A DNA stretch of 64,000 nucleotides, taken from assembly GCF_030269305.1 (NCBI RefSeq), contig NZ_BSTC01000014.1, forward strand, positions 124,001 through 188,000, written 5' to 3'. A program made the position numbers and the translations under genes. Every line of letters starts with the position of its first letter. The first letter of the stretch is position 1. Below the pieces are notes generated by a model. The model was not told where the DNA came from. It was given only the letters and a program-made list of their open reading frames with translations, and ran no database searches. This DNA comes from Kineosporia sp. NBRC 101731 (GTDB taxonomy: Bacteria > Actinomycetota > Actinomycetes > Actinomycetales > Kineosporiaceae). Of the stretch, positions 13,753 to 58,932 are shown piece by piece.

Positions 13753-13835
13753 CGTGATCATGCAAAACCTCCCCGGCGTTCTAGAACTGTTCGAGCAGGA
13801 GTTCTAGAACTCTGGGGAGGTTTTGCATGATCACG
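13753..13835. repeat. Nested palindromic element, copy 1 (bidirectional terminator position)
   Basis: An outer 22-bp inverted repeat (CGTGATCATGCAAAACCT... / reverse complement) encloses 3-nt spacers and an inner inverted repeat built on GTTCTAGAACT / AGTTCTAGAAC, with an 11-nt loop. It lies between the convergent lldD and tetR 3' ends and is followed by a pyrimidine-rich run. Near-identical copies occur at 21467-21547 and 42899-42985. Confidence 0.9.
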
Positions 13836-21466: not shown

Positions 21467-21547
21467 GTGATCATGCAAAACCTCCCCAGCGTTCTAGAAC
21501 TCTAGCTCTCACAGTTCTAGAACTCCGGGGAGGTTTTGCATGATCAC
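21467..21547. repeat. Nested palindromic element, copy 2
   Basis: The outer 21-bp arms (GTGATCATGCAAAACCTCC... and reverse complement) and inner GTTCTAGAACT / AGTTCTAGAAC arms match copy 1. Only the 3-nt spacers and the 11-nt loop differ. Like copy 1 it sits between convergent gene ends (PLDc_N gene and rhamnogalacturonan lyase), so it may end transcription in both directions. Confidence 0.9.
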
Positions 21548-23952: not shown

Positions 23953-24343
23953 GATGGTGCGGTGTCAGCTTTACCCGACAATTCGGTCACGTCAATGACC
24001 ACTGACCGATTGAGGACGTCCGTCCCCGGCGATCGCGGTGATGTCCAGTCACATCTGGGGCCCGGTGCGGTGATCACCGACGTTCGCCGGTCGCCCTCGC
24101 GTTCCTTCGTTCGTGATCAGGCAAAGTCACCCCGGGGAAACTTTGCCTGATCACGAACAAGAAGGTGGCCGACCTTCCCGGTCACCGCGCCAGGGAGCGA
24201 CCGAGACGCAGCGCGTCCGGCCGGGCACCGGAGCCCTGACCGGTGGGACATGCCGACGGCCATCGGTCTCGGTAGCCTGGACAACCTTCACCACGTCGAC
24301 TGCGCGGCCCGGGTCACGTCACGCCGGGCGACCGAAAGGAACA
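23953..24343. other. Intergenic region, divergent promoters plus one long hairpin
   Basis: This gap separates the lyase from the lipoprotein gene. It holds a near-perfect long hairpin (24109-24158, listed separately). Short frames read here are Arg/Pro-rich and unsupported. No other operator or RNA gene is recognisable. Confidence 0.5.
24109..24158. repeat. Related hairpin element (GTTCGTGATCAGGCAAAGT arms)
   Basis: Perfect 19-bp arms flank a 12-nt GC-rich loop. The outer TTCGTGATCA is shared with the three nested palindromes, but the element is shorter, reads AGGCAAAGT instead of TGCAAAACC, and lacks the inner TTCTAGAA repeat. It lies between divergent genes, so a simple terminator role is less obvious than for copies 1 and 2. 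Confidence 0.8.
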
Positions 24344-42898: not shown

Positions 42899-42985
42899 TT
42901 CGTGATCATGCAAAATCTCCCCAGACCTCTAGAACTGTCGACCACAGAGTTCTAGAACGCCGGGGAGGTTTTGCATGATCACGAA
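42899..42985. repeat. Nested palindromic element, copy 3
   Basis: The outer 24-bp arms begin TTCGTGATCATGCAAAA, with one G-T wobble. The inner TCTAGAACT / AGTTCTAGA arms and an 11-nt loop match copies 1 and 2. The 3-nt spacers (AGA left, GCC right) are the reverse complement of copy 1 (GGC left, TCT right), so this copy appears inserted in the opposite orientation. It lies after the alpha/beta hydrolase stop and before a gene on the same strand. Confidence 0.9.
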
Positions 42986-54148: not shown

Positions 54149-54160
54149 GGTCTCTCCTTG

Positions 54161-54204
54161 CAGGTCACGGGCAGGTCATAGGCAGGTCATGGGCAGGTCA
54201 TGGG
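54161..54204. repeat. Four 11-bp tandem repeats (GCAGGTCATGG)
   Basis: Four adjacent units (GCAGGTCACGG, GCAGGTCATAG, GCAGGTCATGG, GCAGGTCATGG) lie just upstream of the DUF4235 start. The 11-bp period is close to one helical turn, so the units could be a stacked protein-binding array, or simple slippage DNA. No gene occupies the 217-bp gap to the MFS gene. Confidence 0.8.
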
Positions 54205-54365
54205 CACTGATGAAGCGTCTCTACGGTGACCTGCCCCGGCGGATCGGCAAGTGGAGCGACCCGGGGTGTAACACCTGGGACACTGGTGCCGTTAGAAACA
54301 GCGGGGCCCTGCAGGGCGGCAGCGCCTCGTGTCCGACCGTTCGTTCTGCCTGTCTTGAGGTCTTT

Positions 54366-55598
54366 GTGTTTCACCCTGTGCGCCAGCACTTCCCCCTGGC
54401 GCTGGTTTTTCTCTGTGTCGGCCTGGCCAGCGCGATGGCCACTCCCTTCCTCACCCTCTTCCTCACCGACGCGGTACACGCCAGTGGTCTGCAGATCACC
54501 GCGTTCCTCGTCGCCGCACCCCTGTCGTCCGTGGTGGTGTCGCTGGGGCTCGCCCGCTGGTCGGACCGTCTGCCCTCGCGGCGCGGACTGATCATCGCGG
54601 CCGCCCTGACCGGCGCCGCCGGCTCCCTGCTGACGGCCTGGCTACGGGACTACTGGCTGCTCCTGGGCCTGACCGTGACCGCGTCGGCCGTCGCGAGTGC
54701 CCTCGTGCCCCAGGTGTTCGCCCACGCGCGGGGCAGCCTGGCCGGTTCGCCCAACGCCGTCATGACCATGACCACCCTGCGCACGGTGCTGTCCCTGTCG
54801 TGGGTGGGCGGGCCGTTCCTGGCGACGATGCTGCTCACCGCCGGTGACTTCACCGCCGTCTACGGTTTCGCCGCCACGATGTTCACGATCGCCGCAGTGG
54901 TGACGTGGCGGATGTTCCCCTCGACGCCTGTCCCGGTGGCCACCGTCGCGGCGCAGACCCTGGAGTCGGAACCCGGCCGGGACGAGAGCAGCCGGGTGCT
55001 CGTGCTCACCATGGTCGCGCTCGTGCTCCTGCAGTGCACCGGAAACCTCTCGCTGCAGGCTCTTCCGCTGTTCCTGAAGAGCGAGCTGAACGCCGGGCTG
55101 GGTGACGCGGGCCTGATCATGGGCCTGTGCGCCGGGCTGGAGATCCCGCTGATGCTGGGCTTCGGGATGCTCGCGGCCCGGTACCCGCTGCGCCGGCTGA
55201 TGCTGGCCGGGCCGGCGCTGGCCCTGGTCTACACCGCGATCGTCGCGGTCTCCTCCGACACCTGGCAGCTCGCCGCGGCCCAGGTTCTCAACGCGGCCGC
55301 GATCGCTCTGCTCCAGGGCCTGGGCATCAGCTACGTGCAGGACATGCTGCCCAGCCGCCCGGGCCACGCCTCCACGCTGTTCATCAGCGCCGGGCCGGTC
55401 GGGGCCATGCTGGCCGGCCCGATCCTCGGTGCGGCAGCCGGTTTCGGCTACCGGCAGGCCTACCTGATCGGTGCGCTGCTGTGCGCCGTGGCCTTCGTGC
55501 TGCTGCTCGTGGCGCGCCCGACCCTCACCGGCGCCCGCATCACCCGCACGACGCGGATCGGGCGCGAGACCGAGGCGAAGCAACTCGTCGAGGCCTGA
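54366..55598 (+). CDS. MFS transporter, sugar-efflux (SetA-like) type
   Basis: The 410-residue protein has about 12 helices. It begins HPVRQHFPLALVFLCVGLASAMATPFLTLFLTDAV and carries the MFS loop motif LGLARWSDRLPSRRG. A central charged loop (~residues 190-215) divides the two halves, and the second half has QALPLFLKSELNAGLGDAGLIMGLCAGLEIP, as in SetA-family sugar or glycoside efflux pumps. It likely exports sugars or sugar analogues with protons. The GTG after GAGG is preferred; the frame is open far upstream but non-protein-like. The C-terminal coding end is immediately followed by 18-bp tandem repeats. Confidence 0.85.
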   Translation: MFHPVRQHFPLALVFLCVGLASAMATPFLTLFLTDAVHASGLQITAFLVAAPLSSVVVSLGLARWSDRLPSRRGLIIAAALTGAAGSLLTAWLRDYWLLLGLTVTASAVASALVPQVFAHARGSLAGSPNAVMTMTTLRTVLSLSWVGGPFLATMLLTAGDFTAVYGFAATMFTIAAVVTWRMFPSTPVPVATVAAQTLESEPGRDESSRVLVLTMVALVLLQCTGNLSLQALPLFLKSELNAGLGDAGLIMGLCAGLEIPLMLGFGMLAARYPLRRLMLAGPALALVYTAIVAVSSDTWQLAAAQVLNAAAIALLQGLGISYVQDMLPSRPGHASTLFISAGPVGAMLAGPILGAAAGFGYRQAYLIGALLCAVAFVLLLVARPTLTGARITRTTRIGRETEAKQLVEA

Positions 55599-55614
55599 TC
55601 CAGGAGCGAGGCCC

Positions 55615-55686
55615 GGGCCAACGTCGAGGACCGGGCCAACGTCGAGGACCGGGCCAACGTCGAGGACCGGGCCAACGTCGAGGACC
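55615..55686. repeat. Four exact 18-bp tandem repeats (CGGGCCAACGTCGAGGAC)
   Basis: Four identical 18-bp units lie 17 bp past the MFS stop. Being a multiple of three, they read as RANVED repeats in the MFS frame, which stays open for long after the single TGA. They could be a former C-terminal extension or a non-coding array. Unit length and absence of spacers exclude CRISPR. Confidence 0.9.
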
Positions 55687-55853
55687 GGGCCCGCGTTGGG
55701 CCCCGGCGCAGCGACGGCCCCTGGGCCAGCGCCGGACCCGGGCCAGCGCCGAGGGGCCGGACCAGTGGCGGCACCCGGTCCAACGCCGTTGCGCTGGATG
55801 AGGCGGGGCAGCAGCTCTGCTCCACCGGCCCCGACCCCACCGGCGAAGCCTCT
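55687..55853. other. GC-rich low-complexity spacer
   Basis: This stretch between the tandem repeats and the 54-bp palindrome contains degenerate GGGCCAGCGCC-type near-repeats and no credible gene. It may be decayed copies of the upstream array. With the flanking elements and riboswitch it fills the 680-bp gap before cbiM. Confidence 0.5.
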
Positions 55854-55907
55854 GCCGTGTGTACACCTGGTACACCCGGTACCGGGTGTACCAGGTGTAC
55901 ACACGGC
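55854..55907. repeat. 54-bp perfect palindrome
   Basis: Every base from the outer GCCGTGTGTACACC to its complement pairs, with no loop (centre GGTACC). Inside, GGTACACC and GGTGTACC units recur, so it may be a nested set of binding sites. It would extrude as a cruciform or form a long RNA hairpin at the MFS 3' end. The next hairpin starts at the following base. Confidence 0.9.
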
Positions 55908-55951
55908 GTTCCTTGCTCCCGGAGCCGTGAGCCGCTCCGGGAGCAAGGAAC
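55908..55951. terminator. 18-bp-stem hairpin abutting the palindrome
   Basis: Perfect arms (GTTCCTTGCTCCCGGAGC and its complement) enclose an 8-nt loop CGTGAGCC. It probably forms part of a strong terminator isolating the MFS and repeat region from the cobalamin riboswitch 115 bp downstream. A T-run is absent. Confidence 0.65.
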
Positions 55952-56066
55952 GTCTGCGCGGCCGGAAGCAGACGGACGAACGTTCGTGGCCGTCGCACGG
56001 GAAAGGAGCGCGGTACTCATATCGGACGCCGCGTGGTTAGATGCGCCAGTCAACTAAACACGAACC

Positions 56067-56249: not shown

Positions 56250-56294
56250 ATGACGAACACGCTGTCCGGCGGGGTGCTCCGTGCACATCGCTGA
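56250..56294 (+). CDS. 14-residue leader ORF overlapping cbiM start
   Basis: ATG follows a good GAGGAG ribosome-binding site and encodes [14 protein letters not shown]. Its TGA lies 11 bp inside the cbiM coding region, in another frame. The cbiM GTG itself has no good ribosome-binding site, so ribosomes ending the leader probably restart on cbiM. The riboswitch would then gate leader translation. It is too short for homology support, and coupling is inferred from spacing. Confidence 0.5.
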
Positions 56295-57033
56295 GGGCTA
56301 TCTGCCGCCCCTGCACGCCGCCGCCTGGACCGTCGCGGCAGCCCCCTTCGTGGTGCACGGCGCCCGCTGTGTGGTGCGCGAGGTGCGCGAACGTCCCGAG
56401 TCCCGGCTCCTGCTGGGCGCGGCCGGGGCCTTCACCTTCGTCCTGTCGGCGATCAAGCTGCCCTCGGTCACGGGCAGTTCCAGCCACCCCACCGGCACCG
56501 GCCTGGGCGCGGTGCTCTTCCGGCCGCCGGTGATGGCCGTACTCGGCGCCGTCGTGCTGTTGTTCCAGGCCCTGCTCCTGGCCCACGGCGGGATCACCAC
56601 GCTCGGCGCCAACGTGTTCTCGATGGCGATCGTCGGACCCTGGGTGGGGTACGCCGCCTATCGCGCCTGTCTGGCGGTGGGCCTGCCCTTCCCGGTCGGT
56701 GTGTTCGCAGCCCTGTCACTGTCCGATCTCTCCACCTACGTGGTGACGTCGGTGCAGCTGGGTCTGGCGCACCCGGACCCCTCCGGCGGTGTACTGGGCT
56801 CGATCGGCGAGTTCCTCGGCATCTTCGCCCTCACCCAGATCCCGCTGGCGATCGCCGAGGGTCTGCTCGGCGTGCTGGTGTTCCGCATCCTGGCCCGCAT
56901 CGCCCCCGAGGAACTGGGCCTGCTGGGCCTGAAGGCCGCTCTCCCGGGACCCACCGACGACGGCGGGCCGACCGCCCGGGCGACCACGACGTCCTCAAGC
57001 ACCGAAAATCGCCCCGACCGCTCAGGAGCGTGA
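56281..57033 (+). CDS. cbiM: Cobalt ECF transporter substrate-specificity protein CbiM
   Basis: The 250-residue membrane protein begins [10 protein letters not shown], the conserved CbiM N-terminus whose first Met/His residues bind the Co2+ ion. The family patterns [25 protein letters not shown] and [18 protein letters not shown] follow. It captures cobalt at the membrane for vitamin B12 synthesis. Together with CbiN, CbiQ and CbiO it forms an energy-coupling-factor transporter. It is controlled by the B12 riboswitch directly upstream. The GTG is fixed by the conserved N-terminus, since its ribosome-binding site is poor. Confidence 0.95.
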
Positions 57034-57038
57034 CCACC

Positions 57039-57368
57039 ATGACCACCCGTACCCCACGCCGCCTGGCCGTCGACCTGGGCCTCCTGCTGCTCGTCATCGC
57101 CATCTTCGCCATCCCGCTCACCCTGCGGCTGAACACCGACGGCCAGCCCGAGGGCGAGTCCTACGCCGGCAGTGACTCCTCGGCCGCCACCAAGGTGGAG
57201 GAGATCAACCCCGGCTACCACGTCTGGTTCAGCCCGCTCTTCCAGCCCTCGTCGGGTGAGATCGAATCGGGCCTGTTCGCCCTGCAGGCCGCGGCCGGGG
57301 CCGGGGCGCTCGGCTTCGTGCTGGGCCGGCTGTCCGGCCGCCGCACCCGGAAGACCAGTGCCCCTTGA
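57039..57368 (+). CDS. cbiN: Cobalt transporter accessory subunit CbiN
   Basis: The 109-residue protein has an N-terminal helix (~10-29), an extracytoplasmic loop with [44 protein letters not shown], and a second helix. This matches CbiN, which helps load cobalt onto CbiM. The ATG lies 10 bp after AGGAG; a GTG overlapping the cbiM stop is an alternative. The stop overlaps the cbiQ TTG. Confidence 0.9.
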
Positions 57369-58114
57369 GCGCTCCGGCGATCGACGTCGCCGCCTGGGCC
57401 AGTCCCTGGCGGCGGTACTCACCGGGCGACAAGGTGCTGCTCAGCCTCGGCCTGGTGATCAGTGCCCTGGTGCTGCCGACCTGGCCGGCCTCGGTGCTCG
57501 TGACCGTGACCGCGCTGGGTCTCGTGCTCGGCCCGGGCCGTGTACCCGGCCGCCTGCTGGTGCGGGCGGCCCGGGGCCCGGCCGCGTTCATCCTGCTGGG
57601 CACCGTGACCATCGCGGTGACCTGGCGCACCGACGGTTTCGGCCCGACCGTGACCGGCGAGAGCCTGGACGCGGCCGTCCAGACCCTGGCCCACGCGGTC
57701 TCGGGCACATCGGCCGTGATGCTGCTGGCCGCGACCACCCCGATGACCGACCTGCTGGCCTGGGCCCGGCGCCGGGGAGTGCCCGAAGCGATCGTGGACA
57801 TCGCCGGGCTGGTCTACCGTCTGCTGTTCGTGCTGCTGGAGTCGGCCGGCGCCGTACGGGCCGCGCAGACGGCCCGGCTGGGCTACACCAGCCGCCGGGC
57901 CACTCTGCGCTCGGCCTCGATGCTGGCCGCCGCCACCCTCACCCGGGCCTTCGACCGCGCCCGCCGCCTGGAGAACGGACTGGCCGGGAGGGGTTTCGAG
58001 GGGGTCATGCGCACACTCGCCGACCAGCAGCCGTCGTCGCGGCCCTTCGTGGCCACCACCCTGGCCGGGCTGACCGCCCTGGCGGCCGTCTCTCTTCTGC
58101 CGGGTGCCCGGTGA
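57365..58114 (+). CDS. cbiQ: ECF transporter transmembrane subunit CbiQ
   Basis: The 249-residue membrane protein has about five helices. The ECF-T coupling motifs are [26 protein letters not shown] and [13 protein letters not shown] (A-R-G type), which contact the ATPase. It transmits ATP-driven motion to CbiM. TTG overlaps the cbiN stop (TTGA), a translational-coupling start. Length agrees with CbiQ. Confidence 0.92.
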
Positions 58115-58932
58115 ACGGGCAGATCGAGGTCGAGGGCCTCGAATTCCGCTATTCCGGAGGCCCTCCCGTGCTGACCGGCGCCGATCTGCAGGTCCCGCCG
58201 GGCACCCGCCTGGCCGTACTGGGCGCCAACGGATCGGGCAAGAGCACGTTGTTACGCTGCCTTTCGGGAGCCCTGCGTCCCACCGCCGGCCGGATCACCG
58301 TCGGCGGGCGCGAACTGCGCCACACCCGCACCGGACTGCGCGAGCACCGGCACCAGGTGCAGCTGATCACCCAGGACCCCGACGACCAGCTGTTCTCCGC
58401 CTCCGTCCGCGAGGACGTCTCCTTCGGCCCGGTCAACCAGGGGCTGACCGACGACGAGGTACGCGCCCGCTGTGACGAGGCCCTGACCCTGCTGGCCGCG
58501 ACCCACCTGGCCGCCCGGCCCACGCACCAGCTCTCGTTCGGCGAACGCAAGCGCGTGGCCATCGCGGGAGCCGTCGCGATGCGCCCCGACGTGCTGGTGC
58601 TCGACGAGCCGACCGCCGGGCTGGACCCGGCCGCGGGCCAGGAGGCGACGGCCGCGCTCGCCCGCCTGCACGACCGGGGCACCACGCTGGTCATGGCCAC
58701 CCACGACGTGGACCTGGCGCTCGCCTGGGCCGATCAGGTCGCCGTGCTGGTGGGTGGCCTGGTGCGGCAAGGGCCACCGGAGAAACTTCTGGACGACGAC
58801 ACGTTGCTCATCCAGGGCCGGTTACGCCGGCCCTGGGTCTTGTCGGTGGCCGCGCGATTGAGAGCCCTGGGCGTGCTGGGGCAGGAGACACCGGTGCGGG
58901 ACGAGCCGTCACTACTGGCCGCGCTGGGTTGA
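58111..58932 (+). CDS. cbiO: ECF transporter ATPase subunit CbiO
   Basis: The 273-residue cytosolic ABC ATPase has Walker [10 protein letters not shown] (38-46), Q-loop Gln88 in [11 protein letters not shown], signature LSFGE (141-145) and Walker B LVLDEP with catalytic Glu166. [22 protein letters not shown] is typical of ECF/cobalt ATPases. It powers uptake by the CbiMNQ complex, probably as a homodimer. GTG overlaps the cbiQ stop (GTGA). It is the last gene of the riboswitch-controlled operon. Confidence 0.95.

Follow-up and report, generated by a model that had tools for sequence, protein, structure and literature searches.

The 54-bp perfect palindrome in the window (the whole stretch of 64 kb analyzed here) belongs to a family of about 40 copies dispersed over its own genome, that of Kineosporia sp. 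NBRC 101731 (8.26 Mb in 88 contigs). The explanation that we favor, with a probability of roughly 0.53, is a non-autonomous palindrome of REP/MITE-like character that was dispersed long ago and whose core would be maintained through sequence-specific recognition, probably of the hairpin form. An earlier note, made from the sequence of the window alone, had treated the palindrome together with a neighboring 18-bp tandem array and a hairpin as a single anomaly. This view was not upheld, as the array and the hairpin look like locus-specific companions of a palindrome that itself belongs to a dispersed family. The features of the locus are listed in Table 1.

Table 1. Features at the palindrome locus. 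Positions are those of the 64-kb window; strand is given where the feature has one.
Feature	Position	Strand	Remark
MFS transporter gene (PF07690)	54378-55598	+	Upstream gene; start from our own codon-usage script
18-bp tandem array, 4.7 copies (TRF)	55607-55691	+	Just 3' of the MFS stop codon
Perfect loopless palindrome, 54 bp, two 27-bp arms	55854-55907		Family member
Conserved core, 46 bp, five GTAC at 9-bp pitch	55858-55903		
Hairpin, 19-bp perfect stem, 8-nt loop, without T tract	55907-55952		
Cobalamin riboswitch RF00174, 81.8 bits	56079-56207	+	Precedes the cbi genes
cbiM, first of the cobalt transport genes	56281-57033	+	
cbiN	57030-57368		
cbiQ	to 58114		
ABC ATPase gene	58111-58932		

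The array, the palindrome and the hairpin all lie between the MFS transporter gene and the cobalamin riboswitch that precedes cbiM (ten proteins of the window were scanned with Pfam). As the earlier note had stated, the array unit CCGGGCCAACGTCGAGGA occurs in four exact 18-bp copies, which start at 55613, 55631, 55649 and 55667, and the palindrome is indeed perfect and loopless over 54 bp. The reported perfect hairpin is also present, but its stem measures 19 bp rather than 18 bp, and it overlaps the palindrome at base 55907 rather than beginning one base beyond it. The description of the palindrome as being built of GGTGTACC-type units had to be replaced, the repeating element being GTAC, five times at a pitch of 9 bp. 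In the window copy the 46-bp core is extended on either side by 4 bp of paired, locus-specific stem, and the core carries a symmetric T>C / A>G variant that it has in common with two other perfect copies (L037 and L042). Its folding as DNA has a z of −9.8, palindrome and hairpin together fold as RNA with −105 kcal/mol (z −13.9), and no T tract was seen after either of them. The covariance model of the family matched the window at this place only. Neither the array nor the hairpin was found a second time in the genome among the best 40 of 153 candidates scored, which led us to reject both as parts of the family. Apart from these elements, the window contains a second tandem array upstream of the MFS gene, in the divergent gap (54160-54206; 11-bp unit, about 4 copies by TRF). 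It also contains a second family of palindromes (13753-13835, 21467-21547, 24109-24158 and 42899-42985), with GTGATCATGCAAAACCTCCCC arms and in some copies an insert around TTCTAGAACT. This second family is far more abundant, with 328 arm matches genome-wide at up to 3 mismatches and none in the reversed control, and the fetched sequences contain it at 13 intergenic places.

To be read as lower bounds, since the whole-genome searches scored limited numbers of candidates, the copy counts agree on a multicopy family. By blastn the palindrome was found at no fewer than 38 places in its own genome (best 40 of 153 candidates scored), and its 24-bp centre at 37 places with up to 3 mismatches, far above the chance level, compared to none for the reversed pattern. 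The covariance model gave 80 matches in this genome and 74 in K. mesophila, which corresponds to about 40 and 37 places if both strands match, as they do in most of the matches listed. There were 22 matches in K. babensis and 17 in K. rhizophila, where the copies are fewer and most of them far diverged, and none in two other Kineosporia genomes (G003 and G004). Since these two members of the genus yielded no palindrome, it is not essential there. Eight further genomes, seven of the family and one of the order, gave two weak model matches in one case (best E 1e-4) and none in the other seven. A blastn search with 62 bp against 58 genomes returned the window's own genome, K. rhizophila, K. mesophila and K. 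babensis, together with a weak 30-bp match in G028. In a relaxed 22-mer search of 84,980 species, a set from which the window's own genome may be absent, all 25 matching stretches belonged to Kineosporia (23 in K. mesophila and one each in K. rhizophila and K. babensis). These genome-wide copies led us to discard the idea of a one-off palindrome. A phage or plasmid origin was likewise rejected, as there was no match in phage and plasmid records and none in IMG/VR. Among the titles and abstracts listed on Kineosporia palindromes, perfect-palindrome families and MITEs combined with minisatellites, none described the family. From the window's own genome, the analyses below concern 39 copies; one further place (C14:43512) lies outside this set.

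The consensus core is a 46-bp palindrome with GTAC every 9 bp, five times, that consists of two complementary arms (TGTG...CACA), and its sequence is nearly invariant in the window's own genome and in K. mesophila. When the arms of 62 copies were folded together, the changes clustered at arm positions 9, 10 and 18-20, and only 5 changes, 4 of them at the first base, fell in the outer TGTGTACA. Some copies contain four GTAC units. The orthologues L062 and L114 are distinguished by a single 9-bp GTAC unit, the K. mesophila copy (L114) having 9 bp fewer, which suggests that units may be gained or lost as a whole. In the copy L073, the symmetry is broken and TRF reports a 9-bp GTACACCCG tandem unit around the core. 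Changes within the core are often compensated: in an alignment of 63 copies 10 of the 25 stem pairs were changed on both sides, with 44 such cells compared to 10.4 after shuffling, and in the window's own genome alone there were 28 compared to 7.5 (35 copies), although the related copies inflate these shuffle tests. Shortened copies and most of those from K. babensis and K. rhizophila are not in this alignment, nor are three copies of full length but lower symmetry that were dropped by hand (L073, L113 and L119); the result stands when these three are restored (48 cells versus 11.0 in 65 copies). Since template switching can also produce compensated changes, according to PMC8794818, the covariation alone is no proof of selection on a hairpin. 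In the four bases adjoining the core the sequence varies but the complementarity is kept, with 112 of 140 cells paired in the window's own genome (93.0 when permuted) and 91 of 108 in K. mesophila (73.7 when permuted); beyond these first four flank bases no excess of pairing was found. Since the stem is prolonged in this way by four paired bases whose sequence is free, recognition would probably act on the palindrome extruded as a hairpin or cruciform. There are also traces of a weakly conserved wider element around the 46-bp core: the flank score beyond the paired bases was 12.2 in the window's own genome alone, compared to 3.8 (maximum 4.2) in 20 shuffled sets, and weak alignments (E 2e-4 to 0.009) of five pairs of copies reach about 60-75 bp away from the centre.

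At 25 or more of the 39 sites, K. mesophila likewise has a palindrome next to the corresponding gene or genes; 23 of these have one or more flanking genes in common with a K. mesophila palindrome locus, several of the pairs resting on one flanking gene only, and two (L067/L211 and L068/L214) were added later. In 20 ungapped orthologous pairs the cores differed at 16 of 920 positions (1.7%), whereas the flanks differed at 78 of 400 positions (19.5%) in the first 10 bp on each side, which is about elevenfold faster, and at 139 of 400 positions in the next 10 bp; as they were computed ungapped, the flank values are upper bounds. Three pairs (L040/L118, L062/L114 and L072/L112) were left out of this count because one of the cores was shortened or broken. 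Together with the later pair L067/L211, which differs at 5 of 46 sites, they show that the conservation of the core is incomplete. Of the alternatives "recent origin or function" in the earlier note, the second fits this conserved core, whereas the first is wrong for the family, given the number of sites shared with K. mesophila.

A purely selfish palindrome with no role for the host, whose uniform core would result from ectopic gene conversion or from template-switch repair within the palindrome, is rather unlikely. The copies are dispersed, intergenic and taxon-bound, as such an element would be, and some of their differences have the form that template switching predicts according to PMC8794818. 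These are the symmetric double changes in L044 versus L096 and in L051 versus L098, and the core of L211, which is a perfect palindrome while that of L067 is not, the two differing at 5 of 46 sites, as though L211 had been made symmetric again. L068 and L214 have the same core, and the perfect palindrome has grown to 76 bp in L214 (G002:C41:2390-5561) compared to 46 bp in L068. However, by our estimate self-repair would about halve the divergence rather than lower it elevenfold, and it is for this reason that we add selection on the core to the explanation. Locus-specific core variants are moreover common to both species at L046/L117 and L057/L115, so homogenization between loci is at best incomplete. 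In the REP/MITE-like explanation that we prefer, the palindrome would have spread by non-autonomous insertion without a RAYT transposase, and most copies would now be under selection, with a putative trans-acting factor recognizing the GTAC modules. The reading of the palindrome as a multi-dimer binding site, which had been among the suggestions of the earlier note, fits the conserved core, the site itself being putative.

In bacteria, palindromes of the dispersed type are mostly associated with RAYT transposases. The REP and REPIN elements that go with RAYT (TnpA-REP) resemble the Kineosporia palindrome in being short, intergenic and dispersed, with a single-strand hairpin as a possible substrate. 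The REP stems described in passages of PMC3733652 are 5-13 bp long, whereas the stem is about 25 bp here, and the Kineosporia family further differs from REPs by its about 40 copies with a core kept at many orthologous sites. The GTAG or CGTC tag that belongs to the REP definition (PMC3733652 and PMC8266576) was found at no fixed offset within 60 bp, as GTAG reached at most 1 and CGTC at most 6 of the 62 copies. RAYT mobilization was rejected since the Y1 transposase domain (PF01797) gave no match in the window's own genome or in K. mesophila (one in K. babensis; controls matched in 5 of 14), an absence that is not absolute because these are draft genomes. The match in K. babensis (L182, C23:303160-303417) is the only Y1 transposase domain found in the six Kineosporia genomes and lies in an open frame of 588 aa. 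MITEs have terminal inverted repeats, target-site duplications and a parent transposon with the same ends. The Kineosporia palindrome is similar in its inverted-repeat ends (TGTG...CACA) and its dispersed, non-autonomous occurrence with insertion between genes. Unlike a MITE it has practically no interior, as the arms meet, and neither a target duplication nor a clean insertion boundary was recognized by eye at the palindrome-free junctions, the boundaries of which are ragged. A parS site is a dispersed protein-binding palindrome, and it resembles the present family in its dyad and in having its sequence conserved at many sites, whereas the Kineosporia palindrome differs in its 46-54 bp with five GTAC units at a 9-bp pitch. 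Judged on these sequence features, the family would be of the dispersed-palindrome kind, REP/MITE-like in its spread but deviating from the REP definition, and from MITEs at least in its lack of an interior.

The position of the copies relative to genes was determined with gene calls from our own codon-usage script rather than a published gene finder. All 39 fetched copies of the window's own genome were intergenic, 22 of them in tandem, 11 in convergent and 5 in divergent gaps and one at a contig edge. The other gaps of at least 80 bp in the fetched sequences, drawn from the same neighborhoods, comprised 97 tandem, 17 convergent and 81 divergent ones; divergent gaps are thus depleted among the copies (Fisher p = 0.0008) and convergent gaps enriched (11 of 38 versus 17 of 195, Fisher p = 0.0015). 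The K. mesophila copies were found in 17 tandem, 6 convergent and 5 divergent gaps and at 3 edges, and one of five K. rhizophila copies was inside a weak predicted gene. The positions are biased to gene 3' ends, the nearest of which is at a median distance of 134 bp (range 38-983 bp, 34 copies).

This bias, the very stable stem and the covariation would all suit an RNA hairpin that serves as a bidirectional terminator, an attenuator or a stabilizer of mRNA 3' ends, yet we regard such a role as quite unlikely. A hairpin needs pairing and not a fixed sequence, and the core is nearly invariant in two species. An intrinsic terminator consists of a stable hairpin followed by a T tract, and the strong bidirectional terminator proposed in the earlier note fits less well with the missing T tract and the median distance given above. 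This proposal is further weakened by copies in same-strand junctions (L052, L048, L066, L069 and L050) that measure 3-77 bp in a relative: L052 has 3 bp in G004 and L069 about 5 bp in K. mesophila, and the L048 copy separates a permease gene from a binding-protein gene. GC-rich terminator hairpins without a T tract are common in actinobacteria, and they share with the palindrome a stable hairpin beyond gene ends. The palindrome differs from them in its conserved sequence and in lying often far from the stop codon or inside same-strand junctions that are short in relatives.

The abutting hairpin at 55907-55952, on the other hand, does fit a GC-rich terminator of this kind. In K. mesophila and G003 a perfect stem of 12-13 bp with a loop of 7-8 nt is located 24-58 nt after the MFS stop codon, and imperfect hairpins were seen there by eye in G004 and K. 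babensis; in K. rhizophila no hairpin was found after the stop. As no perfect stem reaching 9 bp occurs in the first 120 nt after the MFS stop in the window, we read the abutting hairpin as the MFS terminator, which was plausibly pushed about 300 bp downstream. The displacement was probably caused by the insertion itself, between the MFS gene and the cbi riboswitch. The counterpart of this junction in G003 is shorter and has no palindrome before cbiM, and in K. mesophila it has been rearranged so that two genes face the MFS gene convergently, and the palindrome is missing, so the window copy, as opposed to the family, may be recent. In K. mesophila (L149, C27:6788-10022) the riboswitch is followed by apparent remnants of the end of cbiM and the end of the ABC ATPase gene, which by eye looks as if most of the cbi genes had been deleted.

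That the palindrome is the operator of a transcription regulator, controlling the cbi genes at this locus, is improbable. The perfect dyad with repeated GTAC units and the location upstream of the riboswitch are as expected for an operator, but 11 of 38 copies lie between convergent genes, divergent gaps are depleted, and the palindrome is missing before cbiM in G003. In a Pfam scan of 70 of the 75 listed neighbor proteins, neither a transposase nor a recombinase came up, nor any partner shared between copies; the functions ranged from carboxyltransferases to sigma factors with none in common, and for this lack of a theme among the scanned proteins a regulon was rejected. Finally, an assembly artefact, which the earlier note had named as the case that would refute its observation, is very unlikely, close to negligible, since at corresponding junctions of another species, which was assembled separately, the same palindrome is found again, even though four copies (L038, L101, L116 and L119) lie near contig ends.

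Most junctions that lack the palindrome are shorter, the difference being about 100-460 bp. Six junctions of the window's own genome with both flanks aligned are palindrome-free in K. mesophila (L055, L053, L073, L050, L069 and L060); with 80-bp pads subtracted, their spacers measure 273, 286, 428, 399, 213 and 171 bp compared to 25, 185, 75, 6, 5 and 58 bp, respectively. Similarly, the five shared sites L056, L052, L039, L066 and L048 span 3-134 bp in the palindrome-free genomes G003 and G004 (8 measurements) versus 256-521 bp in the window's own genome and K. mesophila. There are also long gaps despite the absence of a palindrome, namely L073 in G004 (424 bp) and L056 in K. babensis (413 bp). 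Of the sites found in the window's own genome only, the comparison covers those other than L037, L043, L061, L063, L070 and L071, which had one flank or a contig end only or no match, and L038. Tandem arrays were present in 32 of 61 palindrome-bearing spacers compared to 7 of 82 without a palindrome (p = 8e-9; spacers of 150-1200 bp in the window's own genome and K. mesophila, orthologous spacers counted separately), and among spacers of 300-450 bp in 15 of 22 compared to 3 of 22. An array beside a palindrome is thus a regular association, with units that are specific for each locus. It may come about either through forks that stall at the palindrome or because the insertion went into lax DNA.

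A more far-reaching version of our explanation, which we put forward only tentatively and regard as rather unlikely in all its parts together, would see in the family a mark of the clade. About 40 palindromes would be bound as hairpin or duplex by a putative protein reading the GTAC modules at their 9-bp pitch, having been seeded by a mobile process other than RAYT and kept by selection at gene junctions, while forks stalled at the palindromes would let nearby spacers grow and minisatellites arise. In most of the shared copies the core survives while the surroundings drift, and no mobilizer was found; the passages of the REP survey concerned (PMC3733652) do not name this phylum. The family links palindromes to the growth of spacers and the formation of tandem arrays, and it lends itself to testing, in a natural setting, which of three things maintains a palindrome: a binding protein, a role as RNA or its own template-switch repair.
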